Below, piece by piece: positions 30,546-54,637 of a DNA stretch of 64,000 nt. The DNA lies in assembly GCA_946894095.1 (NCBI GenBank), contig OX335657.1, forward strand, positions 18,600,001-18,664,000. Direction: 5' to 3'. Position 1 is the first letter of the stretch. Each line of letters starts with the position of its first letter. A model generated the notes under the pieces. That model had not been told where the DNA came from, did no database searches, and was given only the letters and a program-made list of their open reading frames with translations. Source of the stretch: Incurvaria masculella. Lineage: Eukaryota; Arthropoda; Insecta; Lepidoptera; Incurvariidae. A program made the position numbers and the translations under genes.

Positions 30546-30723
30546 AAATATTAAGATGGTACAAATATGTTACATTTTCTTATGAATTTGTTTGACCGAT
30601 GCTGCATAAACGAACGAACGACGAGTGAACTTACGTCATTTGACAGCGAGGATGGTACTAGTCGTCAGCTTTATTCCCTGACTTGTAATTCCCTCGGCGA
30701 ATAAACTCACCATGGTAGACCCC
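30546..30723 (-). repeat. Harbinger terminal inverted repeat, right
   Basis: The outer end is GGGGTCTACC read inward on the minus strand. It pairs with 17,031-17,205. Between it and the transposase start (29,982) lies about 560 bases of presumed promoter and leader. Confidence 0.85.
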
Positions 30724-31010: not shown

Positions 31011-31540
31011 TGTCAAGCTCAGTCATTTAATCCTTTAGGGTACTTCCCGTAGACCTAGAATCATACAATTTGGCAAAAACCAAGGCCTTACAGCACCCAT
31101 AACAGAAGCACAATAATGATAATCTCGTGGCGTACGACAATGACTGAATTATAATCTAGAAGTACGACCTTGTTGCCACTGAGGCGCCGCCGTACTACTA
31201 CTACAGCCCACAGCCACTTCTCGAAAACAGTAATTTCACGCTGAACCTGTGTGGGTCCGCAGCAGGAGATGACCCGCTGGTGTTCTGCGGGGGCAGCGAA
31301 AACGGAAGGACGGGAGATGATCGAAACCGACGGGCTTAGCTTAATATTTTGATTGCTTTGAACCGGAGCCATTAATAATTGATGTACACTTTAATTTGAG
31401 AACCGTTTCCGATAAAAGGGTCTCGTCGGACGGACGGACAAACCATCGGTTGCTCGTTGGCTCGTTTGCATAGAACAATCGTTTGATCGGTGGCTCCAAC
31501 ATTAATGTAGTACGATGTAGTAAGGAGGTTGTTGTTGCCG
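31011..31540. other. Unassigned sequence upstream of the exon array
   Basis: It is moderately GC-rich. I looked here for the missing first RECK exons (signal peptide and first Cys-Cys) and found no supported candidate. Confidence 0.3.
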
Positions 31541-31544
31541 ACAG

Positions 31545-34500
31545 ATGTCGCTGGCGGACATCGCGGCGGACGGCGCCATGCGCGACGACCGCCTCCGCCA
31601 CATCTACAAGTTCTGCTCGCCGGCGCTCGTGAGTACTCTACACGACCCACCCTTTCTCTTCCTCTCCGACCCCTCTCTGACCCCTCGCTCTACAGATGTC
31701 GCTGGCGGACATCGCGGCGGACGGCGCCATGCGCGACGACCGCCTCCGCCACATCTACAAGTTCTGCTCGCCGGCGCTCGTGAGTACTCTACACGACCCA
31801 CCCTTTCTCTTCCTCTACAGATGTCGCTGGCGGACATCGCGGCGGACGGCGCCATGCGCGACGACCGCCTCCGCCACATCTACAAGTTCTGCTCGCCGGC
31901 GCTCGTGAGTACTCTACACGACCCACCCTTTCTCTTCCTCTACGAACCCTCGCTCTACAGATGTCGCTGGCGGACGGCGCCATGCGCGACGACCGCCTCC
32001 GCCACATCTACAAGTTCTGCTCGCCGGCGCTCGTGAGTACTCTACACGACCCACCCTTTCTCTTCCTCTACGACCCCTCGCTCTACAGATGTCGCTGGCG
32101 GACGGCGCCATGCGCGACGACCGCCTCCGCCACATCTACAAGTTCTGCTCGCCGGCGCTCGTGAGTACTCTACACGACCCACCCTTTCTCTTCCTCTACG
32201 ACCCCTCGCTCTACAGATGTCGCTGGCGGACGGCGCCATGCGCGACGACCGCCTCCGCCACATCTACAAGTTCTGCTCGCCGGCGCTCGTGAGTACTCTA
32301 CACGACCCACCCCTTCTCTTCCTCTCCGACCCCTCTCTGACCCCTCGCTCTACAGATGTCGCTGGCGGACATCGCGGCGGACGGCGCCATGCGCGACGAC
32401 CGCCTCCGCCACATCTACAAGTTCTGCTCGCCGGCGCTCGTGAGTACTCTACACGACCCACCCTTTCTCTTCCTCTCCGACCCCTCTCTGACCCCTCGCT
32501 CTACAGATGTCGCTGGCGGACATCGCGGCGGACGGCGCCATGCGCGACGACCGCCTCCGCCACATCTACAAGTTCTGCTCGCCGGCGCTCGTGAGTACTC
32601 TACACGACCCACCCTTTCTCTTCCTCTCCGACCCCTCGCTCTACAGATGTCGCTGGCGGACATCGCGGCGGACGGCGCCATGCGCGACGACCGCCTCCGC
32701 CACATCTACAAGTTCTGCTCGCCGGCGCTCGTGAGTACTCTACACGACCCACCCTTTCTCTTCCTCTACGACCCCTCTCTGACCCCTCGCTCTACAGATG
32801 TCGCTGGCGGACATCGCGGCGGACGGCGCCATGCGCGACGACCGCCTCCGCCACATCTACAAGTTCTGCTCGCCGGCGCTCGTGAGTACTCTACACGACC
32901 CACCCCTTCTCTTCCTCTCCGACCCCTCTCTGACCCCTCGCTCTACAGATGTCGCTGGCGGACATCGCGGCGGACGGCGCCATGCGCGACGACCGCCTCC
33001 GCCACATCTACAAGTTCTGCTCGCCGGCGCTCGTGAGTACTCTACACGACCCACCCTTTCTCTTCCTCTACGACCCCTCGCTCTACAGATGTCGCTGGCG
33101 GACGGCGCCATGCGCGACGACCGCCTCCGCCACATCTACAAGTTCTGCTCGCCGGCGCTCGTGAGTACTCTACACGACCCACCCTTTCTCTTCCTCTCCG
33201 ACCCCTCTCTGACCCCTCGCTCTACAGATGTCGCTGGCGGACATCGCGGCGGACGGCGCCATGCGCGACGACCGCCTCCGCCACATCTACAAGTTCTGCT
33301 CGCCGGCGCTCGTGAGTACTCTACACGACCCACCCTTTCTCTTCCTCTACGACCCCTCTCTGACCCCTCGCTCTACAGATGTCGCTGGCGGACATCGCGG
33401 CGGACGGCGCCATGCGCGACGACCGCCTCCGCCACATCTACAAGTTCTGCTCGCCGGCGCTCGTGAGTACTCTACACGACCCACCCTTTCTCTTCCTCTA
33501 CGACCCCTCTCTGACCCCTCGCTCTACAGATGTCGCTGGCGGACATCGCGGCGGACGGCGCCATGCGCGACGACCGCCTCCGCCACATCTACAAGTTCTG
33601 CTCGCCGGCGCTCGTGAGTACTCTACACGACCCACCCCTTCTCTTCCTCTCCGACCCCTCTCTGACCCCTCGCTCTACAGATGTCGCTGGCGGACATCGC
33701 GGCGGACGGCGCCATGCGCGACGACCGCCTCCGCCACATCTACAAGTTCTGCTCGCCGGCGCTCGTGAGTACTCTACACGACCCACCCTTTCTCTTCCTC
33801 TACGACCCCTCGCTCTACAGATGTCGCTGGCGGACGGCGCCATGCGCGACGACCGCCTCCGCCACATCTACAAGTTCTGCTCGCCGGCGCTCGTGAGTAC
33901 TCTACACGACCCACCCTTTCTCTTCCTCTACGACCCCTCGCTCTACAGATGTCGCTGGCGGACGGCGCCATGCGCGACGACCGCCTCCGCCACATCTACA
34001 AGTTCTGCTCGCCGGCGCTCGTGAGTACTCTACACGACCCACCCCTTCTCTTCCTCTCCGACCCCTCTCTGACCCCTCGCTCTACAGATGTCGCTGGCGG
34101 ACATCGCGGCGGACGGCGCCATGCGCGACGACCGCCTCCGCCACATCTACAAGTTCTGCTCGCCGGCGCTCGTGAGTACTCTACACGACCCACCCCTTCT
34201 CTTCCTCTCCGACCCCTCTCTGACCCCTCGCTCTACAGATGTCGCTGGCGGACATCGCGGCGGACGGCGCCATGCGCGACGACCGCCTCCGCCACATCTA
34301 CAAGTTCTGCTCGCCGGCGCTCGTGAGTACTCTACACGACCCACCCTTTCTCTTCCTCTACGACCCCTCGCTCTACAGATGTCGCTGGCGGACGGCGCCA
34401 TGCGCGACGACCGCCTCCGCCACATCTACAAGTTCTGCTCGCCGGCGCTCGTGAGTACTCTACACGACCCACCCTTTCTCTTCCTCTACGACCCCTCGCT

Positions 34501-36577
34501 CTACAGATGTCGCTGGCGGACGGCGCCATGCGCGACGACCGCCTCCGCCACATCTACAAGTTCTGCTCGCCGGCGCTCGTGAGTACTCTACACGACCCAC
34601 CCCTTCTCTTCCTCTCCGACCCCTCTCTGACCCCTCGCTCTACAGATGTCGCTGGCGGACATCGCGGCGGACGGCGCCATGCGCGACGACCGCCTCCGCC
34701 ACATCTACACGTTCTGCTCGCCGGCGCTCGTGAGTACTCTACACGACCCACCCCTTCTCTTCCTCTCCGACCCCTCTCTGACCCCTCGCTCTACAGATGT
34801 CGCTGGCGGACATCGCGGCGGACGGCGCCATGCGCGACGACCGCCTCCGCCACATCTACAAGTTCTGCTCGCCGGCGCTCGTGAGTACTCTACACGACCC
34901 ACCCCTTCTCTTCCTCTCCGACCCCTCTCTGACCCCTCGCTCTACAGATGTCGCTGGCGGACATCGCGGCGGACGGCGCCATGCGCGACGACCGCCTCCG
35001 CCACATCTACAAGTTCTGCTCGCCGGCGCTCGTGAGTACTCTACACGACCCACCCCTTCTCTTCCTCTCCGACCCCTCTCTGACCCCTCGCTCTACAGAT
35101 GTCGCTGGCGGACATCGCGGCGGACGGCGCCATGCGCGACAACCGCCTCCGCCACATCTACAAGTTCTGCTCGCCGGCGCTCGTGAGTACTCTACACGAC
35201 CCACCCCTTCTCTTCCTCTACGACCCCTCTCTGACCCCTCGCTCTACAGATGTCGCTGGCGGACATCGCGGCGGACGGCGCCATGCGCGACGACCGCCTC
35301 CGCCACATCTACAAGTTCTGCTCGCCGGCGCTCGTGAGTACTCTACACGACCCACCCCTTCTCTTCCTCTCCGACCCCTCTCTGACCCCTCGCTCTACAG
35401 ATGTCGCTGGCGGACATCGCGGCGGACGGCGCCATGCGCGACGACCGCCTCCGCCACATCTACAAGTTCTGCTCGCCGGCGCTCGTGAGTACTCTACACG
35501 ACCCACCCTTTCTCTTCCTCTACGACCCCTCGCTCTACAGATGTCGCTGGCGGACGGCGCCATGCGCGACGACCGCCTCCGCCACATCTACAAGTTCTGC
35601 TCGCCGGCGCTCGTGAGTACTCTACACGACCCACCCTTTCTCTTCCTCTACGACCCCTCGCTCTACAGATGTCGCTGGCGGACGGCGCCATGCGCGACGA
35701 CCGCCTCCGCCACATCTACAAGTTCTGCTCGCCGGCGCTCGTGAGTACTCTACACGACCCACCCCTTCTCTTCCTCTCCGACCCCTCTCTGACCCCTCGC
35801 TCTACAGATGTCGCTGGCGGACATCGCGGCGGACGGCGCCATGCGCGACGACCGCCTCCGCCACATCTACAAGTTCTGCTCGCCGGCGCTCGTGAGTACT
35901 CTACACGACCCACCCTTTCTCTTCCTCTACGACCCCTCGCTCTACAGATGTCGCTGGCGGACGGCGCCATGCGCGACGACCGCCTCCGCCACATCTACAA
36001 GTTCTGCTCGCCGGCGCTCGTGAGTACTCTACACGACCCACCCTTTCTCTTCCTCTACGACCCCTCGCTCTACAGATGTCGCTGGCGGACGGCGCCATGC
36101 GCGACGACCGCCTCCGCCACATCTACAAGTTCTGCTCGCCGGCGCTCGTGAGTACTCTACACGACCCACCCCTTCTCTTCCTCTCCGACCCCTCTCTGAC
36201 CCCTCGCTCTACAGATGTCGCTGGCGGACATCGCGGCGGACGGCGCCATGCGCGACGACCGCCTCCGCCACATCTACAAGTTCTGCTCCCCGGCGCTCGT
36301 GAGTACTCTACACGACCCACCCCTTCTCTTCCTCTCCGACCCCTCTCTGACCCCTCGCTCTACAGATGTCGCTGGCGGACATCGCGGCGGACGGCGCCAT
36401 GCGCGACGACCGCCTCCGCCACATCTACAAGTTCTGCTCGCCGGCGCTCGTGAGTACTCTACACGACCCACCCTTTCTCTTCCTCTACGACCCCTCGCTC
36501 TACAGATGTCGCTGGCGGACGGCGCCATGCGCGACGACCGCCTCCGCCACATCTACAAGTTCTGCTCGCCGGCGCTC
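31545..36577 (+). repeat. RECK: Tandem array of 36 copies of one RECK exon with its intron
   Basis: Each unit is a coding exon starting ATGTCGCTGGCGGAC and ending GCGCTC, preceded by a pyrimidine-rich tract and TCTACAG and followed by GTGAGTAC. Starts are 31545, 31696, 31821, 31961, 32089, 32217, 32356, 32507, 32647, 32798, 32949, 33089, 33228, 33379, 33530, 33681, 33821, 33949, 34088, 34239, 34379, 34507, 34646, 34797, 34948, 35099, 35250, 35401, 35541, 35669, 35808, 35948, 36076, 36215, 36366 and 36506. Exons are 84 nt (23 copies) or 72 nt (13 copies); the short form lacks 12 bases in frame. Spacers are mostly 67 or 56 nt and once 41. Exons are nearly invariant; one copy has Lys to Thr (34,646) and one Asp to Asn (35,099). 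Confidence 0.95.
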
Positions 36578-39500
36578 GTGAGTACTCTATACGACCCACC
36601 CCTTCTCTTCCTCTCCGACCCCTCTCTGACCCCTCCATAGACCTAGCATGCGCGCGCAGCGCGCTGACCCCTCGCTCTACAGATGTGATCCCTGTTATAC
36701 ATTGATGTAATGGGTATTCATCTCCGACCCCTGCAATTCAATTCATAAGCAATTCAATTCATGACTACAAAATATTGAAAAAATATTAGTGGATCCAAAC
36801 CAATGTAAGCTGGCGAAATGGTCCCAAATAAAAGGATCAGGCAGGTGGCTGCTCCTATTGAAATAACAATCAAAGGCATCCCCTAAGATACATTCAGTCG
36901 GGCATGAAAGCTATAAAAATTTAAAAAACAGAAATATATAAACGCTTGGTGCAGCAGGATAATAAAGCCATTAGAAATATTTGTCTCTGCTCATTTTAAA
37001 CCTACTCTCATATTCCTTACTAATACTTTAATCGATTTCTTAATTATATTTTTACGATAAAATATACGAATACAAAAAGCTCCGTTCTCAGATAATAGTT
37101 TTTATGCGATCCAGTCACAATACGGCTGATATCCGCCTCGCCAGGGTTGGCACTGCGAGGGTAGCGAGTGTAATGCGAGCCGGCCCGGCCGAGTTCCGCG
37201 ACGTAAGCGGACACTGCGTTCTGTGTGGTGTTGTCTCCGCTGTCTCCGCGCGCCCCCGCCGCCGCGCGATGAATGGGCGGCGGCGGAGGAGGAGGCGTTC
37301 TGTTGTCGTGGTGGTGCGCGGTGATCAGGTTACGGCTGGGGCGGCGCGGGGCGGGCTGCGTCGGCGCACAGACTACAAACAGCGGGAGTCTCCATACAAA
37401 CTCTTTGTCCCTCAATTTGAAAGTACATAGTATGTAGTAGAAAAAAGACTAGCGAAGATGTGATCGGGTACACAGACAAGATTAGGGGGCCGAGCTTGTT
37501 TGGATTAGCGATCATGTGTCACTGTTAACCTCCACCGCCGCCGCCACCGGGGCGCCCGCGCCGTCGCGCCGGAGACTTGTTGCCACCGTTTCAGTATCCT
37601 AGAGCCAGCCTGGAGCTACGTTTGATAAAATTGGACCAATGTTATTTTAGGATGACCCTTTTAATCGGTTTTCGGTTGGTCTAACGTCTGAGCTTCGGTT
37701 ATTATATCTGTGCAGTTTGGAAGAACTAAGAGGACACTTACAAAAAGAAGTGAAATCTCACCCAACATTTATAATTTGAGAATGGAACCAGGTCTCGTTA
37801 CGCTTTAGCCATAAAGAGAAGTGGGATAAACACTATCATGAAGATCTGTTCTTGTTGCAGATAGACTTCTGGATCTGCATGAACGAGACTATTCAAGGTA
37901 CGCATATTTCCTTTTTAGGGTTCCGTACCCAAAGGGTGCCAAACGGAACCCTATTACTAAGCCTCAGCCGTCCGTCCGTCCGTCACAGGGCTTTATCTCA
38001 TGAACCGCAATATGTAGACAGCTGAAATGTTCACAGAGTGTCTGTTTTTGTTGCCGCCATAATGAGAAATAGTAAAAATAAAAAATAAAAGAGGTTACCA
38101 TACAAGAAACGTGATTTATTTCGGTCAAATATTGTATAATCGTACGGAACCCTTCGTGTGCGATTCTGACTCGCACTTGGCCGGTTTTTTTCAATGTATG
38201 TAATTCGAAACGGATGGTACCCACAGAACAAAGAAAAGATGTACCACACCCGCCGTCATGATATTGGCCCCGACACGCCGCCGAATTCCCGGGGGAATTG
38301 GGTGTCATGCCAAGCCCTATCCTTGCACGGCTGCGTTGGATGGAAAACATAGAAACATTTTCATTGCCGCTTCGAGGATCACTCTATCCGATGCGGTGAT
38401 AGCTGTCCGGGCGGGTTTGATTTACCCTCTCACCAAGTAAGGGAAGAAGACCTGAAGTTTTACATGGATTCCAAAGCATGGAGCAGCTCGCATTTCTAAC
38501 GAAATGCACTTATTCAAGTCAGAAATGTAAAGAACGTTGTGTAAAGAACGGAGCGGGGATTGATCATCTGTGTCATGAACATATAGATAGATAGTTAGAA
38601 CATAGAACAGTGGAATTCAATACGATTAGTACTGATAAACAAAACCATATACGCGGGCGCAGCTATTTCTATGTACTTCCTATTTCTATGAACAAAACTA
38701 AGGGTCGAGTGCACGACGCCTCGTAAAGTGTTATCCGTTACTGATTACATTTGACGATGATGTGACGGCTAATCGCCCATCATATGAAATTGAGTTGCAC
38801 GTAACATATTTTCGTCAATGTTAGCTTGCCAGGCGTCAGACTACAAATAGTCCCTCGAAACAATCGGCAAAAATGTTTGCTGTATGGCAACTCTCAGAAC
38901 CGCTGAGCTGACATAGTACCGTCCTTCTCCCACAGTATAGAATCAGAAAGGGGCAGGGAAAATTAAAGCACCATCTAGCGTCAACCATTCGTACTAACAA
39001 ACAAAACAGATGCTCTTGGAGCCGCGGGGTGGCGCTACTAGCGCCCAATATGTCGGCTTGCCATCAGCTGTTGGTAGCACCACAGATTACATAGATATAG
39101 CGCCGAAATTTTTAATCTTTAGAACCGGGTGTCAGGCTAATAATTATGAAAAACAAAGCATTGTATTTTATGAATGGCAACGTTTGCCTATTATGTAAGG
39201 TCCAATAAAATTGCAAAAAAGGGACTTTTGATTTGGACAACAGGCTAAAGCCGACAAACATAATCTTACACTTCAAAAGACTTACAAACGTTACAGAAAC
39301 ACATGCATCAAAGCCACAAAGGTCGCAAAGGAACTTTACATAAATAAAGACTTACACAACAATAGACATAACCCGAAGAAGGTATGGAAAATAATAAAAG
39401 ATGTTGCTGCATTACCTTCCAAACAAAAAAACCACAGTGAAATCAGTGGACCGGACTGCATTAACTTATATTATGCTAACGTTGGACAAAAACTTGCAAA

Positions 39501-42500: not shown

Positions 42501-45500
42501 GAATAAATCTGACGTTTAGTTGCATTTCGTAGAATACTAACTGGCAAATGACTTGTTATTCGACCAAGGAGGTATATAAAGGGGAGGGGGGGGGGGGTTC
42601 AAACCCCGACTCGATGCGTTTCTTATTTTGGTAATGTCGACAATGAATGCGTGCATTAATTCCCCGCCTGTGCCGCGTCGAGCGATGGTATAAAGGGGTA
42701 GGTACGAACGAGGGACAGCATTATGCAGCTCCGAGGAGCATTATCCATGACAGAGACAATAGAACACGGAGAGAGACCCTAAACTTTCGGAGTGGAGGGT
42801 CGGGATACCTCGGGGTCGTCGACGTGACGCACGGCTCGGCGCCGCGCCGTATAGTACTCAGCAGAGCCGTCCCATAAATGCGAACAATACTCCATGCATG
42901 ACCTTGTAGAGGACCTTGTAGAGGAGGAAGGAACTGACATGGATGGCTAATAACACGCAACTACCGTTATGATATTAGCCCAATACACCACATTTCTGAA
43001 GGAATTAGGTGCCATGCCAGGACTTTCCCTTTATGAGCACGGCTACGTTGAACTAGATGAAATTTTTTATTGCCGCTTCGATCATCTTTTCATTCAATGC
43101 GGTGGTACCAACCCGGGCGGGCTTAAACCCTATAAGAGGATCCACAGTTTTACAGCTGCAGCTCGCATTCATAACGAAATGCGCTTATCCAACTCAGAAT
43201 GGGTAAGAAAGTGGTGCATGCGAGGATTTGAACCGAGACCTCTGGTATGCTCATAGACCTAGCATGCGCGCGCACATCCTATTTCTATGGGTATGCTAGA
43301 CAAATCCCCACGTCTTTAGGCCACAGTTTAGGCTACGAGCCGCTCAAACAACACACAGGTCAGTATTGCTATGTATAGCCATGGGCGTATTATTGTATTG
43401 TGGTCATCGACGTACCATTGTGGTCCATAGCCTCATGGTTAAGCCAAAGCAAGGCGGTTTGGTTGAAAATAATTTCTGAGCTTTCTTCTGTAAGCGGGTC
43501 GATGAAGAAGTGGCAACGATTTTGTAGTTTTAAATTTAGTTTAGTTAACTTGTGTGATGTCGCGCGGCAGAGGTGATGGCGGGAGACGAGTGGTGGGGGC
43601 GCGCGTGCTGCTCGCTGCCGCGCGGCGCGGAGTGTCGGCGCGCATGCGCGACCGGCCGCGACGCGAGCGCCGCCGCCGCCGCCTGCCGCCGCTCCGACGA
43701 GCTGGCCTTCTTCGACTGCGTGCGGCGGCAGGAGGACGCACAGTTCTGCTGCTGTAAGTATAGTTATGTCGTGCGTGCGAGGTGTGATGGTGGTCAGTGC
43801 ACGGAGGTTCGGGCAGTACAGGCGATTCTTTTCGTGTTGCAGCGCAGACGCAGTCGCTGTCGTGCCACGCGGCGTGTCGCGAGCTGTTCTGGCGGTCGCT
43901 GCGGGGCGGCGGCGGGGTGGGGGGCGCGCGCTCGCGGGCCGCGGCCGCGTGCTCGCCGCACTCGGCGGCCGCGGCGCACTGCGCGCACAACCTGACGCGC
44001 GCCGCGCCCGCCACCGACCCGCTCAAATGTCAGTCTTCTACTCTACCTGGAGTCGGCAGTTATTCTACACGCGCTTACGAAACACAAATATAGAGTCATT
44101 GATGTGATGCATGACGCTGTACCTCCGTCCCCTTTCTACCTTCGCTCAACGCGGAACAGGGACAGAATGCACATATTCACAGTCGACTTTCCAAAAATTA
44201 GAACCCACCGATCTTCTAGATCCTTCATCTGTTATCCTTCAACCTGTTGTGAAGAAGCACCTGGCCTGCCGGCATGCTTTTCGCAGCCCCCCTGTAAGTT
44301 CGATATCCCATGGGCGACGTCGGGTACCTTAAGAGGTCCTGGCTTACGCCATATACCGCGCTTAACATATTTTTTTTTTATATGTTTAAAAAAATAAGCG
44401 TTGGAAGCGCGCACCTAGACGGCAGGTAGCGTTGGCGGGGCAGGACTCCTGAATGTGCGAGTGTTGCCGCAGACGTGGAGTGCTGCCGCGTGTCGGCGAG
44501 CGCGTCGTGCCGCGCGTCGTGCCGCCGCGTGCTGGGCGCCGCCGCCTCCCCCCCCGCGCCGGCCGCCACCGACCCGCACGAGATTATCGACGCGCTGCTG
44601 GCGGGCGGCTGCGGAGCGCCGCTCCCGCACGACGCCTTCTGGCAGTGCTTCCTGCGCAAAGACTCGCCCGAGCCGTCCGCCGCCGCCGCCGCCGCCGCCC
44701 TCGACCGCCTGCCCGTCGACTCCGCCAAACTTCACTGCTGCCACAAGGTGGGCCCTCTCTTCATTTGACAAAACCACGGATGCGCGAGATTATCGACGCG
44801 CTGCTGGCGAGCGGGTCCGCGCGTCGCTCCTGCACGACTCCTGGCAGTGCTTCCAAGTCTTCGCCGCCATTCTCGACCACCTGCTCGTCGACTCCCCAAA
44901 CTACACTCTTCTTCTTTTTAATAAAACTTATATACGAATCTGCCATTCAGGCCAATATTCCGGATTTTTATGAAAACTATTTAAAATTAGTTTGGAGTTT
45001 GTAGAGTTAGTGTAGAAGGGCTACCTTCTCGACGGGACCAACCAAAACCATCCACCTTCTCTCTAGTCGGCCATGGACTAACTCATTCGTGGGCACAGCA
45101 CAAAATCGTTCTGTTGCGCTCTGGCACTGTCTCTGTTTTAAAGCATGTTATGTTGCTCATGTTACGGTGTATGTGTATTTCGACCGTTATCGACTGTGCC
45201 AACGTTACACGGGCCCCACTGCGGCTATGGCCCCAATACTGGATTTCTGAATAATTTCCTTTCACATCAACCTGAAAGTCTTCAACGTCGCTGAAGTTTG
45301 ATGAAGCTGAGCCGTCCGGCAAGTCGTGGGTGTGGTTGCGTGTTGCAGGCCCGCAGCGCGCAGTGTCGGCGGCTCTGCTTCGACACTTACAACCGCGACT
45401 GGGTGGACAACTGGCGGCCCTTCGAGATGGAGTGCCTGCGCGGCGCGCGCGAGCCGCACCTCGCCGACTGCCTGCTCGAAGGTGATACCTTGCGCCCTCC

Positions 45501-48500
45501 GCGCCCTCCGCGCCCGTCCACACATCGACAGCGCACCGGATTATGCGATATGAAAAAATACTTTATCCCCTACATTTGAATGTAACTACGCGAGTTAAAT
45601 TTAGCGAGGGCTTGGTTTGCCACATGCGGTTTGTAGAGTAACTCAGTCTATTGTACAGGTACTACCACATACTTTGTTCTGTGGAAGTTATATCCCTTAT
45701 TCCTCCCTGTTCAACCTTTATCCGGAGTACTTGCCGCAGACAATCAGAGCACCCATCCATTGTAGAAATCAGGCTTTTGAGAACCCACCGTTTCTGAAAT
45801 GTGTCTACGGGCGAGTACTTTTCCTTTTGTCTTCAACCTGGGGCTCTTCAAATCTAGAATTGACAGCTTGGATAGCACTATGATAGTCCGCAAATCGGCT
45901 GGTGTGATGCATCGCTGAGCATGGTTTTGCGAGAATGTATGAATGTATGACATGTAGAATGTGTGTCTGTAGAAGAAGCGAAAAATTTGCATATTCTTTC
46001 GTTGTGTATGGCGTTCTTATCATCTCTGCCCATCCCTTCAGGGAAACGGTGTAATGGTATGCATATAGGTATATATGTACCAGTATGTGATGCTCGTTTA
46101 ATTAATTTTTTGTTTGATCTTTGAGAGTAAAACATACATGATGTTGTAACGCGTGTGTACATGTGTGGATAGTGGAGGAGCCATGCACGCTGGGCTGCGA
46201 CGGGCTAGCGTACTGCACGAACTTCAACAACCGGCCGACATCTCTGTTCCGCGCCTGCGCAGCTCCCGCCGACCTCACCGCGCACCAGGACGTCAGCACA
46301 CAACTCTCACGGGGAGGGTACGTTACCTACCTCACGCCTTCACCCCTCGCACGTTTTATCTTATTTCACCTCGTTAATATAATTCTAGTCAACCTTTTCC
46401 TGGTTTTAATAAAACGTTTCACAAATCTGGTCATGGTTCATACGAGGGTCTGGGCCAGACCCCCCACCGCCGAGCTCTTAATTACGGTCAGTTTAAAATA
46501 TTTGTGATCTCGACAACAGCGCCATCAATCGGGTCCAGCATCGGTCCAAATATCCTCGGATTTCGTGCATGTTAAAAAAATATATTAACCGGATTGATAG
46601 AGCAATTATTTTTGCTCTTAAACATTAAGGCATACATTTTTACTATATACATTATTGTATGCTATACTTCGTTCAGACGTGTACAGTATACGACGCGCGT
46701 AGCGGGCGTAATGCAAGCAGGCAGGCGTAGTGGTTGCGCGTGACGTCACGTTGCAATGTGTTGTAAGGTGAAGGTGTCTGTGTGCAGGTACGTGACGCTA
46801 GAGGCGCTGCGGCTGCCCGTGCACAACTCGAGCCGCTGCTCGCCGGAGCTGTGGCGGGCGGTCGCCTGCGTGCTGCAGGTCAAGCCGTGCTCCCACGAGG
46901 TGAGCACACGATCCGCCGCCGCCGCCGCCGCCGTCCAGGCAGACGGGAACCTGAGCCCTCGACGTGTTGAAATGTATCATGAAGCAGACTCTATTGTAAA
47001 TCAATAACGATCCTAGAAATTGTAAGCCTGCTCCATGCTGAAATCTTGGTCTCCATGAGCCAATGCTACACATTCAGCAGTTTTTTTAAATTCAAGGAAT
47101 CAAACAGTATTATAAAATACAATTGACAGCAAGGAAGGAAGGCTAGAATGCGGTAGTGTTGAGTGACGAGGAGGCGCGTGTTCCCGGCAGGGCCACAGCA
47201 GCCGGCTGTGCCGCGAGGACTGCTACCGGCTGGTGTCGGCGTGCGTGCGCTGGGAGGAGGCTCGCGCGCTGCACGGTGACGTCACGGCCGCCTCGCTCTG
47301 CGCGGCGCTCACCGCCGACGCACCCGACGCGCCCTGCGTCTCGCTCGACACCTTCCTCGTACCCAGTCAGTCTCACTCTGCTCTCTGCTATAGAACACTT
47401 TTCTTGTATCCCGCTTAACTCAGCAATCCGTCATGGACATTTTGCTGTTTCTTTGTCTGAGCTATTAGGTTATTTTAATCTTTAGGCAGGGGGAGTTGCC
47501 CATTGACCACTCTCACTATTCTTTGGCGAATCGTTTCATGAGATTTGGAACGCTATTCCTTCTCAGTTCTGTGTAAATGGTACTTTCAGAACCGGTTAGT
47601 GTAGCAGCTGGTAAACTGGTTTCAAAATTGTTTTGTAAACTGCTATTTTGCTTTCATTGGTTAACTGAGGCTTTTTAAGAATCAATCAATACATAGATCG
47701 AAGTTTTGCATCCAGGGCTTTTCTTTTGCTCCAAATATGTTTCTGCCGCGAAATGCCAAAAGGTCCTGTGGAATTTTTACACATATAAATAGCTTATTCG
47801 CACTACACCATACTGCTGATGCGACTAGGTGCCTATCACAAACACTCGGAACGAGCACTGCAAGTCAGCCTCAGTGGCCCAGTGGCGCGACACTTCGGCG
47901 ATCGCTCTCCGAAGTTAAGCAACGCTGGGTCCGGTCTGGTCTTGGACGGGTGACCATTCGACCGTTGAGAGAGGCTGGACGTGGTTCGGATTCCACGTTA
48001 AGCTGTAGGTCCCCTTCCTTACTTACTAGGTGGTAGGGTTTATCCCGCCCGGGTTGGTACCATCGCATTGGATGAACGATGGTCGAAGCGGCAATGAAAA
48101 TTGTCCGTGTTTTCCATCCAGTTCAATGTAGCCGTGCAATATAAGGAAGGTCCTGGCATGGCACCTAGTTCCCATGTAGTGTGTTGGGCTAATACCATGA
48201 CAGAACGTGTGGTATTAGCCATCCATGTCCAGTCACATAAAAAAAATGCTAATTTCAATCTAACACGCGAAGGAGTGAAGATGTGCACACCCTCGGTCGA
48301 CACAACCTAAGGAGGCTGCGTGCGTATTCTATCTCCACTCCTTGTGCTGCGATGAGCTAACAGCCGGCGGCGGTGGGTGCAGGCTCGGAGGAGGCGCCGA
48401 CGTCGCTGGCGGCGCGCGTGACGTCACCGTGCGCAGGCGCGCCGTGCGCCGCGGGCCGCGTGTGCGTCGTGAACTCCGCCTGCGCGGACGGCAGTTCCTG

Positions 48501-51500
48501 CGCTCGCTACCTCTGCCTGCCCGGCTGCCCAGTCGGTGCGTCATGCTCATTTTAAAATATTCAATTTTACTTTACTTTTGGAAAAGTGAATCAACCTATT
48601 GCTAAAAATATCCTGCTGTACCTTATTTTCTCCTCAATAACATACCTCAAATAATGCTTACAATCAAATCAATATTTTGCTATCTCGGTCGTACCCCTTG
48701 GCATTCACTCGAGACCTATGCATATGGTTGTCTTTACTCATTAACTAGACCATAGATAAATGATAATAGGGAAAGATTGCTAGCGTCATACAAATATTGA
48801 ATAGGGATAATGAAAGTCAACAGATGGCGTTGAAATTCACATGTGAGAATACATTAAATACAAACCAATGAATATCAATGATATTTTTTATTAACCATTC
48901 ATACTTAATTTATACTTAAAATGCAACGTTTTCATCATTCTTGCCTAGGTAAAATTTTAAATTAAGCTTAGTTTAATCGTGTAACTAGTTCTGGTAGTGA
49001 CGGGAGATGGCGCTGGTTAGAAATGTCATAGTAACATTAAAAAAAAGAAGTATTGAGCGAGTTTTGTACATTGTACGGCGTTAGCAGTCTATCCCTGCTA
49101 TCCTTTGTCTATGCCTAGACTGATAGGCACATACCTAGTAGCATTTTGCTAATTAATCCTTGCATAGTCGTTTGTGCTACAAGTTTTCCATACTATGTTA
49201 GCTCGCAGTACACTCGCATGATACTTGCAAGTATCTATATGTATATATATTCTCTGACTGATATGTCACGTAAAGAGGAATTGAAAGAGAGCATTGATGA
49301 CAGGTAATTTTTGGGAACATGTACACCTAGCGTAATATGACGTAAGAATCGGCATCGGCTCGACTTCGCTCGAAACTGAGAAGTTCTGTTGTGATTTAAC
49401 CCCCTCCATGCTCGCCCTCCAACGTCACACGCTTTTGATAAAGTGTACATTACTTTGGGAGGCGATCATGTTAATCTTAACTGGGTGCATCGAAATGCAC
49501 ACCTACGTGATTATTTAGTTTGCGTTCTAGGGTCTGCAGTGGCATAGAATGTGAAGCGGGCTATCCATTTCCACGCAACATACCGTATCAGAGTCTCATA
49601 GTAAAAATGTTCTCGTTTCTTCTGCCGAGCTCTGTTCTGTTACTTTCGTGTTAAGATTTCGAGTGAGGTGACGTCAACATGTGCCGGGGTCACAGGTGAG
49701 GCGAGCGAGTTCCTGGTGCCGGCGGGCGCGCTGGTGCGGGTGCCGATGGTGGGCGGCGGCGGCGGCGGCGGCGGCGAGGGCTGGGGAGCGGGCAGGAGGG
49801 GCTGCATGAAGATCTGCGCGTGCGGCGCGCGCGGCGTGCTGGAGCGCTGCCAGCCGCTGCCTTGCTTCTCCTACGACAACTGCACTCTCGGCGACAAGGT
49901 CATACTGCACGGTCGGTACTCCTCCCGTCTCACGATCAAAGTCTGCTTTATACTTATAACCATTCATCGATATGACTAGTAAAATTTCTCCATGTATTAC
50001 GCGTCGCGACGTAGGTCGAAATCATCACGTCGTCAGACCAGGAGCGATACTCAACTGTGTGGGGCCAAACTTCCACTGACATCGTCTGTGGTGCAGGCTG
50101 GGGAACGTCCCCGGTTGAGGGTAGTGGGAAATTTTGGGGGTTATAGGGGCACTCCCACAGAGCATATGCGGCTTAGTTGACAGCGGAGGTGACAGTGTCG
50201 GTTGTCTGTTCGCAGGCGACACATACTACATGGAGTGCAACGAGTGCAAGTGCTACGCGGGCGAGCGCGTGTGCTCGCGGCGCGCATGCGCTGTGGACGG
50301 CGGCGGCGCGGCGCTGCTGACGCGTCTGCCGTGCAACTGTCCGGCGCACTACCTGCCCGTGTGCGTCGCCGGCCGCACGCTCGCCTCCGCCTGCCTCGCC
50401 AAGTCAGTGCCGATTCCTACCTGTCTTGTCTCTTCCTCGTGAGATGCATTTCTTTCTGGCAAGCTAAGAGATTTCCCCATGTAACAGTTTCGTAATTTCG
50501 CATTTCCGCAGCAGTGTCGCCCTGAATTGGCTCTGTATGCATTGCACTTTCATTTCTGCGACTGCAATTTGTCACTTCACTTATACTGGTCACTTACCCT
50601 TTTCGGGCCTCCTAAAGGCGCCGCTCGTTACGAATATTTTTGAAGTGTTTAAGCAACAGAACATTTGAACGATAAATACTGTTATAGGTGTAGCGGCTAC
50701 AACGACGCGGACGTAGAGGAGGGAGCATGCATGTTACACTCCGCGTGCCAGCGGGCGTCGTGTCCGGCGCAGAGCGTGTGCGTACCGCGACCGAGCGTGT
50801 GCCTCTCGCTCCTGCAGCGACCCTGTCCGCAGCACGTCTGCGGTGAGACACACTCTCTTACTCCGCAAAATGTATGCATTTTACAGTACTTGTGGACCAA
50901 ATATGTAATGAAAATATTATATATTTGCTCGTTTTACAGAAAACAATGGCAAAAGGAACACTTCATACCAAATGGCATTCTCTATATCATATATATAATA
51001 TCGACACGGATGCAGAACATGACGTAAGATCTTCGCACGACGCGTACCAGTAGGGGCCCAGTCAGTCGAAGGAGATATGGCATTAAGCGCGCCTACTATA
51101 AGAACCGCCATCTCCAATTTTCAAAAACTACCAACCCAACTTAAACGTACATGCCACATGCAAGTATAGTAGCGGACGTAATGGAGGGTTTGTGTGTGTG
51201 GGAACTCACGCGACGAACACATTCGCGCGCGGTGGCGATGTTTTGACTGTGCACGTGAGAGCATGCGCGTGCCCCCCCCCAGCGTGTGTCTCTCGCTCGT
51301 GCAGTGACCCTGTCGGCAGCACGGACGAGTATAGTAACCACGGAGGAGGGAGGTAGAGAGGAGATGGTCTAAGCAAACTGGGTCTGTGTCCACCAAGTGG
51401 GTCTCTACGTCACAGCCACGTGATAAGAAGGCGTGGCTTAGCGTCATTTTTTTTGTTTTTTTATTTCAGGTTTATCAACAGTGATATATTTCAAAACATA

Positions 51501-54500
51501 TTAATAAAAATGAAGCAAGAAAACAAGATGGAAATATTCACTAATTAAAGATAAACACAACACAACATGTCATTCGCGACATGCCGCTGGCGATGTTAGG
51601 TTGTAAGACAATATTATGGTCTGCGGGGCAATTTTCAGCGAACAGTCGATTACACGACGAGATTTTGTGTAAAATGTTGCAAACATTCCACAGGACAAAA
51701 TAATCTAAAGTTTGTAGGTGGTATTAACTTTTATTTGTCAGTAAAACACCTTATATTTTATAATTTGAGTCAATATTCGAGCATTGTATCGATGTATCGC
51801 TCCTCCTATGTGCTGATAGATGGCGCGCAATCATTTTTTTGTACGGTAAGAAATGTTGATGTCATGATTAAAATTATTTGAATCAGCGCGCGGTTAAGAT
51901 TTAAATTTGGAAGGTATTTTTATAAATAAATTTACAGTAAAATGCAAAAGGCGCCATCTAGTTGTAGTCTTGTAACCACTAAGAACAGCTCTCGGAATAG
52001 CTGCTAACAGAATACCGGTTCTTCCGGTAGATGGATTTAGCACAAAAGGCGAAGCTTGAACCCCCACCATGAAATGTTTTTCTCCCCGCTTCCCTGCGCA
52101 GTGTCACGCTGCGTTCCTTAGTAATATAAGCTAACAACACCTCTCTATCCCTCCTCCGTGATAGTAACCGTCGACGTGTTGCAGTGCCGGTGGGCGAGGA
52201 GTGCGACGTGGGACAGGCGCCGGGTCCGGTGTGCGACACGGAGCGCCGCACGCACGGCAGCGTGTGCGAGCTGGTCGCGCGCCGCCGCACGCTCGCCTAC
52301 TACGGAGAGTGTCTCACGAATTGCCGAGAAAAGGTACTCGACAGGACAGTGTTCCTTCAGCCCTATGCAAGATGATTTGCGGCGTCGAATATATGTTTTC
52401 GGTCACAGTTTGGGTAAATTTGCGTATGGTTTTTAAATATAATTTACACGATCTTTCAAATTCGAGACTGATAAATACATGATTGCCACTAGACGGATTG
52501 TCCCTGTGAAAAGAAGAAGAAACTACATTCTTACAGCCTCCACCTGCTGGCTGCAATATATCTGACTAACGGTAGCGTGGACCGTTAGCGTGAACCGTTA
52601 GCGTTCGAGTTTTGACATACTGAAATCGGTATTAGTGGGCGAAATACCAGACGGACATTACAGTTTCGATTTTTGTAGAAACGCATTGAGCTTTGTATCT
52701 TAGCATTATGTGTTGATTTTACGATGTTCTATAATCTAGATTAAGGGCCTGGTACTAGCCAAATCGCAAAGTTAGACGAGGCACCCCAAGTAAACTAACT
52801 AAGTCTGACGATTATAAGTGTCATCCTTACAATATATGATTCCTTGTCTAGGAATCGAATGATTTTCGTTAATGTATGTTTCCTTTTTCTATACAAAATA
52901 CATTGTGGAAACGGTGTCCATTTCCGAACTTTTTTGACTAAATGTAGAAATCTAAAAGCAAATGGAATTTTTTGTTTATGCATATATGCTGTTTTTGCTT
53001 ATATCTAGAAATCAAATGACTTTCAGATTTCTAATGAGAAAAATCAACTTTTTTTATTTTTATTATTATTTAAATAAATGATGGAATAAAAAAATATTAA
53101 CAATCCATTATCAGTCTGGAGTTCGATTTGGATTTGCTGAAGCGTTTCACTACATATTATTACATTTGTTAAAAAGTGCATTTGTATGGCGCGAGTAGTT
53201 GGCTAGTCCTAGCGCCTTAAGCGTGTTGCTTGGGTCCGGTTAGGTTTTCGACAGGTGACCGTCCAATGGGGGCCGTTATTAGGATTAACGAAAAACTGTG
53301 TGTTCCCTGAATGGGAGGATTACTAATCCTGCCTGTCCACCTATGCAAACATCGCATTGTATAAAAGGCGGTCGAGGCGGGAACGTAAACTGTCTGTGTT
53401 TTCCAACTAATGTCATTACAATCGGTGTGGTATTAGCCATCGATGTCCAGTTTCATAAAAACAACGCTAGAAGCGCATCGAGCGTTTTGCCTTAAATAGA
53501 TGATTGAATGTTCGGCAGGAGGAGGGCGCGGTGTGCGGCGCGGACGGACGCACGTACGAGTCGGAGTGTGCGGCGCGCGGCGCGCTCGCCGGCGTGGACT
53601 ACGCGGGCGCATGCGCGGCCGTGGGCGCCGTGCAGGCGGGAGCGCGAGCGCGCTGCTCGCTCGAGCGCGTCGTGTGCGAGCGGCTCGCGCGCGCGCGCTG
53701 CGTCGCCTACGTGCCGCCGGGCGCGTGCTGCCCGCGCTGCGGCGGCGCGCTACGCGTGCTCTACTCGCGCAAGCAGCTCGACCGCGCTCTCTACGGCGCG
53801 CGCGACTCCGCCGCCGTGCTCAACGTGCGCGCCGTGCTCGCGGCTCTCGCGCGCCAGGTAACCTAACATCGCCTCAAATAGAACATATTCCTCGTGCGAC
53901 ACCCACTCTCTTCGGAGACGTCCCTTGACTGATCCTGCGTTTTACCAGCGGTCCGGTCAAAATCGGTATTTTGCTTTGAGGGTGAAATGAATTAAACTAT
54001 ATTACTCTTTACAGCGGTAAGGTTATCGACGCCGAACGGTTTACATTGGTTGGAGCAGAAGTTTCTGATTCTGCTTCTTACGGCTCCTAAAATATATACT
54101 TAAGTGAACCTTACCTTTCAGGTTATTTATACTTCCTAATATACGCAATGTATACGATGGCTCATTTCGATATTCCTGACCAAACCTCACACTTTTGTTT
54201 GATTGTTCTATTGATTCCAGGCAATAAAACACAATAATTATATTTCTCTGTGAGCTCAACGAGCGCACTGCGGTGGGTGATGATGGGCCCTGGTTTTTAT
54301 GGTTGTGGTTGTATGCACGCAGGTCACGGTGGGCGAGTGCTCGCTGCGCGGACACCTCACGGTGGAGGGCGAGCTGTTCGTGTCGCTGGAGAGCGCGGCT
54401 CGCGAGCCGAGCGAGCTGCAGCTGCGGCTGTGCGTGCTCGAGGCCGAGCGGCTCGCGAGCCTCGTCAACGCGGAGAGTGCGCGGCTCGCGGCGGACCTCG

Positions 54501-54637
54501 CGCTCAGCGCGCTCACGCTGGCGCTGCCCGCACACGAACTGTACGACTCGTCCGCCGCCTCACCCTCCCCCTCCCTCCCTAACGCCGCCGTCACTACCTC
54601 CGCCGCCGCCGCCCTGCTCCTGCTGTGTGCCAGATAG
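31545..54637 (+). CDS. RECK: RECK, GPI-anchored cysteine-rich Kazal protein (5' end not found)
   Basis: RECK is a cell-surface glycoprotein that restrains matrix metalloproteases and, in vertebrates, acts as a Wnt7 co-receptor with GPR124. Visible coding exons: one member of the array, then 37861-37897, 43571-43753, 43843-44028, 44473-44747, 45349-45481, 46173-46317, 46788-46899, 47191-47365, 48383-48535, 49696-49911, 50216-50402, 50688-50842, 52185-52333, 53519-53857 and 54323-54637. All phases match, and the fifteen single-copy exons total 2,760 bases (919 codons and a stop), against 971 residues in human RECK. The order is Cys-Cys knot repeats, the conserved CTNFNNRPTSLFRAC block, cysteine-rich middle, three Kazal motifs, and a hydrophobic GPI-type tail. 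The signal peptide and first cysteines are missing. Exons are extremely GC-rich with Ala and Gly runs. AATAAA follows at 54,851. Confidence 0.93.
36578..37860. other. RECK intron after the array; GC-rich patches
   Basis: The last array spacer (36,578-36,681) carries an insertion, CATAGACCTAGCATGCGCGC, before its final TCTACAG. A CpG-rich block lies at 37,140-37,400 and another at 37,530-37,580. No further exon was identified. Confidence 0.45.
37861..37897 (+). CDS. RECK: RECK micro-exon, end of the first cysteine knot
   Basis: A 37-base exon encodes IDFWICMNETIQ plus one base. It corresponds to the EIWNCMN segment of vertebrate RECK. The acceptor is TTGTTGCAG and the donor GTACGC. It joins in phase 0 to the end of any array copy. 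Confidence 0.88.
37914..38196. repeat. Dispersed repeat with GGGTTCCGT termini (reverse copy)
   Basis: It runs from TTAGGGTTCCGTACCC through (CCGT)n to GACTCGCACTTGGCCGG, the reverse of the copy at 6,341-6,536. It lies 17 bases after the RECK micro-exon. Confidence 0.65.
38240..38530 (-). repeat. SINE copy
   Basis: Reversed body blocks are TGGGTGTCATGCCAAGCC, TTGCACGGCTGCGTTGGATG and GTCCGGGCGGGTTTGA, then CATTTCTAACGAAATGCAC toward the head. The promoter head is missing. Confidence 0.7.
39240..41497 (+). mobile_element. 5'-truncated LINE with intact reverse transcriptase
   Basis: An open frame runs from about 39,270 to 41,178. Upstream of the RT it has the linker typical of CR1/L2-like LINEs (VWKIIKDVAALPSK), then NYRPISLLTTLSKILEK, FLDLAKAFDTV, VPQGSVLGPVLF and the catalytic ITYADDTVL. 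KYLGVILDENLSW and a long C-terminal region follow. The endonuclease domain is missing through 5' truncation, as usual for target-primed insertion. The 3' end has a (TTTGA)n tail at 41,471-41,497. It lies in a RECK intron in the gene's orientation. It resembles the LINE at 57,946 in layout, but the two belong to different families. Confidence 0.88.
41639..42138 (+). mobile_element. Solo LTR, 500 bp
   Basis: It starts TGTTACG and ends CGTAACA, with the direct repeat ATAC on both sides (41,635-41,638 and 42,139-42,142). A TATA box (TATAAAA, 41,894-41,900) and AATAAA (42,076-42,081) are in the expected order on the plus strand. No internal retrotransposon sequence remains, so it arose by LTR-LTR recombination. 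The orientation follows the TATA/AATAAA order. The frames predicted inside it are not genes. Confidence 0.85.
42935..43258 (-). repeat. SINE copy with tRNA-derived head
   Basis: Read on the minus strand, a B-box GGTTCAAATCC lies near 43,230 and leads into the standard body (CGCCCGGGTTGGTACC, TCCTGGCATGGCACCTAATT). The A-box side is truncated at the 5' end. Confidence 0.78.
43571..43753 (+). CDS. RECK: RECK exon, second cysteine knot
   Basis: It encodes DEWWGRACC, then AECRRACATG and DELAFFDCVRR, ending QFCC. This parallels vertebrate GWVGLGCC...ECRQACKQ...NALFSCISR. The acceptor is CGCGCGGCAG and the donor GTAAGT; phase 1 at both ends. Confidence 0.9.
43843..44028 (+). CDS. RECK: RECK exon, third cysteine knot
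   Basis: It encodes SLSCHAACRELFWRSL, a Gly/Arg/Ala-rich insert, then AHCAHNLTRAAPATDPLK. The insert GGGGVGGARSRAAAA is richer in Gly and Ala than in vertebrates. Only 89 bases separate it from the previous exon. Confidence 0.88.
44110..44375 (+). repeat. Dispersed repeat D
   Basis: The most complete copy, with TTCACAGTCGACTTTCCAAA, GAAGAAGCACCTGGCCTGCC and CTTACGCCATATACCGCGCT. It lies in a RECK intron. Confidence 0.55.
44473..44747 (+). CDS. RECK: RECK exon, fourth cysteine knot
   Basis: It encodes VECCRVSASASCRASCRRVL, then EIIDALLAGGCG, HDAFWQCFLRK, an Ala-7 run and KLHCCHK. This matches vertebrate YCCDRAEDHACQNACKRIL, PLWQCF and KLHCCSK. In vertebrates this region is implicated in Wnt7 binding. 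A decayed partial duplicate follows at once. Confidence 0.9.
44784..44906 (+). pseudogene. Decayed partial duplicate of the fourth-knot RECK exon
   Basis: It repeats GAGATTATCGACGCGCTGCT, then CTGGCAGTGCTTCC and CTGCTCGTCGACTCC in the order of the parent exon. Small indels break the frame, and the alanine tract and splice donor are lost. It starts 37 bases after the parent exon. Confidence 0.8.
45349..45481 (+). CDS. RECK: RECK exon, fifth cysteine knot
   Basis: It encodes SAQCRRLCFDTYNRDW and FEMECLRG...HLADCLLEG, corresponding to vertebrate TCRELCTKLYSMSW...VSMLTCL. Phase 0 at the start and phase 1 at the end; the donor GTGATA is weak. Confidence 0.9.
46173..46317 (+). CDS. RECK: RECK exon with the conserved CTNFNNRP block
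   Basis: It encodes EEPCTLGCDGLAYCTNFNNR and then PTSLFRAC. This is the best-conserved stretch against vertebrate RECK and the firmest basis for the gene call. The acceptor TGTGGATAG has a poor pyrimidine tract. Confidence 0.93.
46788..46899 (+). CDS. RECK: RECK exon, CRD-like middle region
   Basis: It encodes YVTLEALRLPV, then SPELWRAVACVLQVKPCSHE, matching vertebrate KCQPEMWKAIACSLQIKPC. The acceptor is GTGTGCAG and the donor GTGAGC. Confidence 0.92.
47191..47365 (+). CDS. RECK: RECK exon, CRD-like middle region, second part
   Basis: It encodes LCREDCYRLVSACVRWEEA, ASLCAAL and APCVSLDTFLVP, matching vertebrate ICKSDCVEILKKC...SICELLS...NCIPLDTYLRP. Phase 0 at the start, phase 1 at the end. 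Confidence 0.92.
47864..48247 (+). repeat. SINE copy with 5S-rRNA-derived head
   Basis: The head carries CCGAAGTTAAGCAACGCTGG and TGGTCTTGGACGGGTGACC, matching the internal promoter boxes of 5S rRNA. It is followed by the same body as the tRNA-headed copies (CCGCCCGGGTTGGTACCAT, GTCCTGGCATGGCACCTAGT). This is the arrangement of a SINE3-class element. Confidence 0.8.
48383..48535 (+). CDS. RECK: RECK exon, cysteine-rich region
   Basis: It encodes TSPCAGAPCAAGRVCVVNSA, then CADGSSCARYLCLPGCPVG, matching vertebrate HPCNPNPCPANELCEVNR...FCVQGC. Phase 1 at both ends. Confidence 0.92.
49696..49911 (+). CDS. RECK: RECK exon with a (GGC)8 glycine run
   Basis: It encodes EASEFLVPAGALVRVP, a run of eight glycines (49,754-49,777), CMKICACGARGVLERCQPLP and CTLGDK. 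This corresponds to vertebrate GEASDFIVRQGTLIQVP and CYKICSCGQSGLLENC. The glycine run is an in-frame triplet repeat absent from vertebrate RECK and probably variable in length. Confidence 0.92.
50216..50402 (+). CDS. RECK: RECK exon, cysteine-rich region and first Kazal motif
   Basis: It encodes YMECNECKCYAGERVCSRRA, then LPCNCPAHYLPVCVAGRTLA and SACLA. The PVCVAGRTLASAC core is the first Kazal motif, completed in the next exon. Phase 1 at the start and phase 2 at the end. Confidence 0.92.
50688..50842 (+). CDS. RECK: RECK exon after the first Kazal motif
   Basis: It encodes SGYNDADVEEGACM, CQRASCPAQSVCVPRPSVCL and QRPCPQHVC. It corresponds to vertebrate NPCQKNQRCIPKPQVCLTTF. A decayed duplicate of its 3' half lies at 51,250-51,335. 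Confidence 0.9.
51250..51335 (+). pseudogene. Decayed duplicate of the RECK exon at 50,688-50,842
   Basis: AGCGTGTGTCTCTCGCTCGT, GCAGTGACCCTGTCGGCAGC repeats the end of the parent exon with scattered substitutions, including a stop (TGA for CGA). The donor is lost. Upstream, GTAGCGGACGTA near 51,168 may be a remnant of the exon's first bases. Confidence 0.75.
51450..52184. other. AT-rich RECK intron sequence without recognised features
   Basis: No coding sequence or named repeat was recognised. A sequence related to 51,336-51,363 returns in inverted form at 52,138-52,168. Confidence 0.3.
52185..52333 (+). CDS. RECK: RECK exon, second Kazal motif
   Basis: It encodes EECDVGQAPGPVCDTERRTH, GSVCELVARRRTLAYYGEC, then LTNCREK, matching vertebrate ACDQVQDPVCDTDHMEHNNL and YKGPCQPFC. 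The Kazal pattern PVCDT...VCEL...YYGEC is complete. The donor is GTACTC. Confidence 0.93.
53188..53468 (+). repeat. SINE copy with degenerate 5S-derived head
   Basis: GGGTCCGGTTAGGTTTTCGA and AGGTGACCGTCC resemble the 5S box C region. The body is partly deleted but keeps CTGTCTGTGTTTTCCAAC and GTGGTATTAGCCATCGATGT. It ends 50 bases before the next RECK exon. Confidence 0.65.
53519..53857 (+). CDS. RECK: RECK exon, third Kazal motif and CCPLC-like region
   Basis: It encodes GAVCGADGRTYESECAARGA and VDYAGACAAVG (third Kazal), then YVPPGACCPRCGGALRVLYS, matching vertebrate PVCGHNGETYSSVC and IIPPGACCPLCAGMLRVLF. It is the longest visible coding exon (113 codons, phase 0/0) and almost entirely GC at third positions. 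Confidence 0.94.
54323..54637 (+). CDS. RECK: RECK last coding exon with GPI-anchor signal
   Basis: It encodes VTVGECSLRGHLTVEGELFV, LCVLEAERLASLVNAESARL and LALSALTLALPAHEL. A Ser/Pro/Asn linker and the short hydrophobic end AAAALLLLCAR before the TAG fit a GPI-attachment signal. This matches the end of vertebrate RECK (EAEKIESLINS, PLSALIIS). Confidence 0.92.
   Translation, partial: VTVGECSLRGHLTVEGELFVSLESAAREPSELQLRLCVLEAERLASLVNAESARLAADLALSALTLALPAHELYDSSAASPSPSLPNAAVTTSAAAALLLLCAR

Follow-up and report, generated by a model that had tools for sequence, protein, structure and literature searches.

How does a single exon come to stand 36 times in a row, and what does splicing make of the copies? 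These questions are raised by a 64,000-nucleotide (nt) stretch of the lepidopteran Incurvaria masculella (contig OX335657.1, here C17, of a 552-Mb genome assembly in 31 contigs; C17:18600001-18664000, hereafter the window), in which one exon of the gene RECK forms a tandem array. We propose that the array is an exon-seeded minisatellite, that it is tolerated because an exon of 84 or 72 nt with phase 0/0 keeps the reading frame under any splicing choice, and that transcripts carry one to several copies; we give this reading a probability of about 0.58. Among four readings offered in a preliminary description of this DNA, a minisatellite that contains an exon is the best supported, because six other exon-derived arrays are present in the pieces of the genome that were read.

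The array was recounted base by base, and the result agrees with the 36 near-identical copies of 84 or 72 nt described before. At 31545-36577, 23 copies have 84 nt and 13 have 72 nt, together 2868 nt or 956 codons; AG precedes and GTGAGT follows the exon in 36/36, and frames and splice sites are intact in every copy. Apart from the 12-nt in-frame deletion type, 33 of the 36 exons are identical, and the other three carry one base difference each (34710 A>C, 35141 G>A, and 36289 G>C), two of these changing an amino acid and one being silent. The 35 introns between copies measure 67 nt (n = 20), 56 nt (n = 14), or 41 nt (n = 1); by inspection, those of 67 nt hold a branch-like CTGAC motif. Tandem Repeats Finder (TRF) scored positions 31813-36635 at 7105, far above chance, and the array has the properties of a minisatellite, namely, head-to-tail units longer than 6 base pairs (bp), high identity, and block duplications. 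No Rfam family matched the window at gathering scores. The span of 31545..36577 given at first holds for the exon copies, while the full repeat runs from 31541 to 36686. A polypyrimidine tract had been ascribed to every copy, but copy 1 has a different acceptor, GAGGTTGTTGTTGCCGACAG, which does not show the strong tract that marks the others. The parts of the array are as follows.

31541..36686, + strand: whole tandem array, with 36 complete exon copies and the start of a truncated 37th; ACAGATGT at 31541-31548 and 36679-36686
31545..31628, + strand: copy 1 (84 nt), the sole copy with a different, native-looking upstream acceptor
31696..36449, + strand: copies 2-35 (84 or 72 nt), with an acceptor ending in CTCTACAG and the donor GTGAGT; copy 3 follows the sole 41-nt intron
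36506..36577, + strand: copy 36 (72 nt), followed by 105 nt of intron start until an orphan ACAG, 38 nt beyond the 67-nt type

Judged by its Pfam domains, gene model, and homologues, the gene is an orthologue of RECK, as had been proposed. Four Pfam RECK domains lie above the cut-off between 43.5 and 50.0 kb (RECK-like_N, CC4_RECK in two exons, FZ_RECK, and EGF1_RECK), and matches to FnI_RECK and Kazal_2 lie just under it. A 16-exon spliced model that begins with copy 1 and ends at a stop at 54637 is uninterrupted, has consistent phases, and encodes 947 amino acids (aa); its CC3 and glycosylphosphatidylinositol (GPI)-type signal were recognized by inspection only. A homologue search that covered proteins of about 521-1657 aa found 51 RECK proteins among 7985 scored candidates, of which 28 have lepidopteran names, 5 are unnamed, and the rest are from other insects. 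The best match has 51% identity, and close relatives are not among the matches. We selected 28 of these 51 proteins and built a tree of 29 rows with the window sequence added. In it, the window's RECK is sister to 20 lepidopteran rows with support of 100/100, which places the organism in Lepidoptera or very close to them; it has a long branch (end branch 1.01) and an unlike make-up.

37861..37897, + strand: 37-nt exon IDFWICMNETIQ, with the last cysteine of the cysteine-knot domain CC1; phase 0 to 1
43571..43753, + strand: RECK exon CC2 (RECK-like_N match, gene model)
43843..44028, + strand: RECK exon CC3 (gene model)
44473..44747, + strand: RECK exon CC4 (CC4_RECK match, gene model)
45349..45481, + strand: RECK exon CC5 (matched by the CC4_RECK model; gene model)
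46173..54637, + strand: ten further RECK exons, FZ-like, EGF-like, and Kazal-like, with a GPI-type C terminus, by inspection; stop at 54637

The first of these is the micro-exon previously placed at 37861. No tandem array with a period of at least 60 was found in the ten exons at 46173-54637, and the shortest intron of the model outside the array has 89 nt. The exon that precedes the array exon, CC1a (EMSGCCSKAEGSCRSVCEK), was looked for inside the window and not found there; it was located upstream, where it forms a separate array of its own. To speak of one amplified RECK exon, as was done at first, was therefore an understatement.

C17:18595356-18596687: CC1a array, 98 bp x 14 copies, upstream of the window and about 35 kb before the 36-copy array

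The presence of two exon arrays, together with the long branch in the tree, might be taken to mean that RECK is a dying gene, decaying at this locus. However, the 16-exon model reads through to its stop with consistent phases, and the domains are conserved, which makes decay very improbable.

By comparison with homologues, the array exon is the middle piece of CC1, so its assignment to the first cysteine knot is upheld, as is the statement that any copy number keeps the frame. Around its position, homologues read ...CRSVCEK-MSLVEIASDSAMREERIQNIYKFCTPHL-IEFWICMNQT..., and the arrangement ...CRSVCEK|MSLVEIA...FCTPHL|IEFWICMN... in these proteins agrees with the phase 0/0 codon borders described earlier. 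According to published work, each CC domain has six cysteines and CC1 makes contact with Gpr124 (PMC6588345); the array exon contributes one of CC1's six cysteines. A pattern that gives the first match only parsed 29 of the 51 homologues, the other 22 being truncated or having different N termini, and in 29/29 parsed proteins the middle piece (23-29 aa) was found once. The 24-aa array copies resemble the 23-aa piece in Papilio, Parnassius, and Iphiclides; the 12-nt deletion therefore sits where length varies naturally.

Exact 10-residue repeats occur in 3 of the 51 homologues, all outside CC1, and one of the three proteins has no CC1. The predicted RECK of Ostrinia nubilalis (P0027) contains LTGLPCNCPPHHLRVYSAHHLYPNVC three times, as opposed to once in O. 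furnacalis (P0020); in that of Chilo suppressalis (P0048), one exon end is repeated, whereas P0037 of the same species is without the repeat; and that of Iphiclides podalirius (P0018) has a ten-residue repeat that is absent from P0014. These are gene predictions, not RNA, and may point to similar amplification of RECK exons outside CC1.

Judging from the bases at the breakpoints, the array is a tandem duplication born of microhomology at ACAGATGT. The same 8 bases stand at both edges: the left edge (CCGACAGATGTCGC) reads CCG-ACAGATGT-CGC, the right edge (CTACAGATGTGATC) reads CT-ACAGATGT-GATCC, and the internal junctions (CTACAGATGTCGC) read CT-ACAGATGT-CGC. Among 180,964 pairs of positions outside the array, a match of at least 8 bases occurs at a frequency of 2.9e-4. 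Because this sharing at edges and junctions is rare by chance, we propose that one 84-nt RECK exon, together with the start of the following intron, was duplicated between two copies of ACAGATGT, of which the first overlaps the native acceptor and the second lies in the downstream intron. The intronic copy, which follows a pyrimidine-rich stretch ending in CTCTACAG, would have supplied the acceptor for every later unit, with copy 1 retaining its different upstream acceptor. Since each unit would thus carry a ready-made acceptor, the duplication would have created exon and intron together. At the right end of the array, the orphan acceptor is followed by a truncated ATGT.

For the order of the duplication events, we infer growth by blocks. 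The unit labels along the array read abcddeafghijgghidehidehhhkhideidehil (12 labels), with the block 'hide' present three times, and such repeats suggest that unequal exchange multiplied both single units and multi-unit blocks until there were 36. Intron type and the length of the next exon go together: all 20 introns of 67 nt are followed by an exon of 84 nt, and 13 of the 14 introns of 56 nt by one of 72 nt. That an assembly error multiplied one or a few true copies is very hard to believe, given the mosaic of copy differences (the 12 labels), an array size of only 5.1 kb, and the presence of several independent arrays that differ in unit and divergence.

The other arrays are derived from exons of various genes. 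Besides that of CC1a, they are the following.

C17:18549706-18556126: Erlin exon array, 131 bp x 49 copies (identity, E 2.9e-41); the final copy runs on into the complete exon
C17:18510865-18512621: LIN54-like exon array, 168 bp x 10.5 copies; the last copy is complete
C17:18528258-18528716: SMYD-like exon array, 166 bp x 2.8 copies; the first copy is complete; name tentative
C17:18470169-18470432, - strand: COPS4 exon pair, 141 bp x 1.9 copies; two complete 107-nt copies with a 34-nt spacer, 8 differences, and both frames open
C3:9009023 onward: ABCB (P-glycoprotein) array, 110 bp x at least 8.9 copies, derived from the 3' part of an exon, which it follows

The COPS4, Erlin, LIN54-like, and SMYD-like arrays all lie within 150 kb before the window, and ABCB is on another chromosome; the ABCB array extends past the fetched piece, so its copy number is a lower bound. 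The name LIN54-like is tentative and presumes, from a nearby CXC domain, a kinship for which the exon itself gives no Pfam match, and downstream of the SMYD-like array a Pfam SET domain reaches only E 0.003, under the cut-off. Stops interrupt 25 of the 47 nonfinal Erlin copies read, and copies 2 and 3 of the 10 LIN54-like copies are frameshifted. From these sequences, the 36-copy array would seem to be one case of a process that repeatedly multiplies exons or exon edges in this genome. The RECK arrays probably lie in a subtelomeric region, because the last 4 kb of the contig, whose end is about 173 kb from the 36-copy array, opens with a 1.29-kb AGGTT (TTAGG) repeat.

Whether arrays overlap exons more often than chance allows was assessed by counting TRF loci with a period of at least 60, at least 1.8 copies, and a score of at least 200. 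A 214-kb stretch of C17 holds nine such loci, of which six are exon derived and three could not be assigned to an exon by eye; twelve 10-kb interior pieces hold five, of which one is exon derived, two lie in partly open frames, and two show no coding signs. With the 36-copy array left out, 6 of 13 loci are exon derived, a result with a binomial chance of 2e-5 if 5% of the sequence is exonic, 9e-4 at 10%, 0.03 at 20%, and 0.17 at 30%. This enrichment is suggestive only, because the exonic share is assumed and the C17 stretch was picked for the finding. At eight further 3-kb loci (L001-L008), no array was found at a score of at least 100 and a period of at least 15. It is possible, though we hold it only tentatively, that throughout the genome of this lineage minisatellites arise preferentially at exons and exon-intron borders. 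Many genes would then carry stacked exons or exon edges, with CC1 of RECK as the extreme case, in which two successive exons were amplified independently, the second of them into 36 nearly identical, splice-competent copies, and transcripts vary in their number of knot segments.

What the spliceosome would do with the copies can be approached through site strength and intron length. By a home-made matrix, scores of the 35 acceptors within the array range from 1.4 to 8.7, with 32 at 2.4 or 3.9, compared with 0.0 for the native acceptor. In Drosophila, introns have a mode of 60-70 nt, which is also a local maximum of splicing rate, and splicing is reported to be fastest in long, exon-defined introns (PMC5762160). 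Twenty of the 35 array introns, at 67 nt, fall within this modal size and stand between exons of 72-84 nt. Considering the Drosophila rates, joining of neighboring copies is plausible but perhaps not efficient. In human ATP7A, where duplications cover at least two exons, the largest transcript held the duplicate in 9/9 patients, and the wild-type single-copy form was also present in all of them (PMC3240829). Given plausible but perhaps inefficient joining and the ATP7A mixtures, RECK transcripts would most likely contain one to several copies, with the one-copy form providing working RECK, and the extra copies would be tolerated rather than selected.

Some of the same evidence could be read as modular extension of the protein: copies joined by intron definition would yield an mRNA with most or all of the 36, and thus an insert of up to 956 aa of helix-plus-cysteine units. 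Intact donors and acceptors in 36/36 copies, array acceptors of which 32/35 score above 13 or 14 of the 15 acceptors elsewhere in RECK, modal-size introns, and the ATP7A duplicates all agree with it. However, each extra copy would add a partnerless cysteine, because CC domains have six and the exon carries one, and the middle piece was found once in each of the parsed homologues. A query of four joined copies against 7993 candidate proteins returned nothing at an E value of at most 0.001; this is a weak control, because it took in a size range of about 145-462 aa, in which a long RECK could not show. We consider such extension unlikely.

Protein conservation among the parsed homologues favors the reading in which one copy is chosen per transcript, by competition or steric hindrance, with the copies interchangeable. 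The COPS4 duplicate, in which 107-nt exons are separated by a 34-nt gap under the usual insect intron size, is as expected for a steric pair. In RECK, though, the unit was compared with one stretch on either side, 29001-31540 upstream, in an intron that extends over a further 32 kb, and 36691-37855 downstream. Its complementarity to them was no better than in shuffles, 29-35 of 40 of which were at least as good in each of four tests. Thus, neither docking-selector pairing nor the competing RNA pairings of a mutually exclusive cluster were found in the stretches searched. Moreover, 67 nt is within the range that Drosophila splices (PMC5762160), and exclusion by a too-short intron is described as working for pairs only (PMC6071210). 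Obligate choice of a single copy is thus rather improbable for RECK.

The exon-seeded minisatellite reading draws on the frame. The RECK exon, repeated as a whole, has equal phases and a length divisible by three, and double inclusion is therefore harmless to the frame. By contrast, 107 nt is not a multiple of three; double inclusion in COPS4 appears unlikely, because the 34-nt spacer is under the usual insect intron size, and its duplicate is a candidate mutually exclusive pair. In CC1a, copies 2-14 have an acceptor, and the native donor AAG|GTTCGT is present only in the last copy, with AAGTG or AAGTT in its place in the remaining 13; in two scanned units, other donors score -0.6 at most. Because the extra CC1a, Erlin, and LIN54-like copies are without the native donor, exon definition could pass over them, although this is not certain. 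Together, these few cases suggest a filter by which arrays survive where splicing cannot break the frame. A simpler contrast, in which the other arrays cannot make exons at all, was dropped on account of cryptic donors in the Erlin and LIN54-like units.

Several observations weigh against the minisatellite reading as we state it. The common donor, CTC|GTGAGT, scores 1.3, under 8 of the 14 other RECK donors. Drosophila introns that are about as long as the exons, and those of 40-50 nt, are reported to splice more slowly (PMC5762160), and this lineage may require introns longer than 56-67 nt, since the next shortest in the RECK model has 89 nt. Selection could act on every RECK copy, as all 36 are intact versus 25 of 47 Erlin copies with a stop; about four exon mutation events are too few for a test. 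The cryptic donors mentioned above score 3.3 for AAT|GTGAGG in the Erlin unit, versus 6.6 for the native donor, and 2.3 for GTG|GTGTGT in the LIN54-like unit, versus 0.0 for the native donor; the Erlin array has a cryptic donor in each of two units scanned. Finally, the case for generality comes from 334 kb out of 552 Mb, and 214 kb of this surrounds the finding.

The array resembles known systems in part. The kringle IV-2 repeat of human LPA consists of units of about 5.5 kb, each with two exons and long introns, that are translated. Like the RECK array, it places near-identical, exon-bearing units within one gene and keeps the frame, and its units vary in number; unlike those of RECK, they are large and translated, whereas the RECK units have 125-151 bp and are candidates for translation. 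In a potato case of intron gain, duplication of an exon and part of an intron activated cryptic signals and produced a new intron, as the RECK units appear to have done, but it produced one intron, not 35 near-identical introns in a row with a whole exon 36 times. The yeast cases cited with it differ in that a 24-bp exonic piece is repeated. Internal tandem repeats in human segmental duplications are similar in that minisatellite expansion over exon-intron borders alters gene structure, and they are reported with units of about 30 bp in about 4 copies (PMC2812944), versus 125-151 bp with a whole exon 36 times in RECK. The Dscam clusters, too, are tandemly duplicated exons with splice sites between fixed neighbors, but there selection is described as working through competing RNA pairings (PMC6071210), whereas the RECK copies are nearly identical and show no such pairing in the flanks searched. 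A search of the open-access literature found neither a RECK exon array nor exon-seeded minisatellites in Lepidoptera, which is not proof of absence.

With 36 near-identical exons that share a donor, have like acceptors, and stand between two fixed neighbors, the locus is a natural experiment on how position governs choice among equal splice sites, a variable that can rarely be separated from others. In addition, the arrays catch the duplication of exons and the creation of introns while the breakpoints can still be read. If exon-seeded arrays occur genome-wide, they would bear on the origin of protein repeats and of gene structure, and they would cause errors in annotation.

Three minor observations concern the surroundings. 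At C25:6000001-6001211, a 75-bp array of 16 copies encodes a 25-aa unit (NYAKLAPEVEIHKAFEDLPFLDALA), in a frame with one stop in its first 320 codons and several later. Within the window, long open frames at 6778-8601 (+), 10257-14580 (-), 39232-41178 (+), and 57943-59460 (+) presumably belong to retroelements, having by eye the look of reverse transcriptase or gag-pol. Downstream of RECK, at 62925-63338 (+), lies an exon of NDUFB5 (Pfam NDUF_B5, E 2.6e-38).

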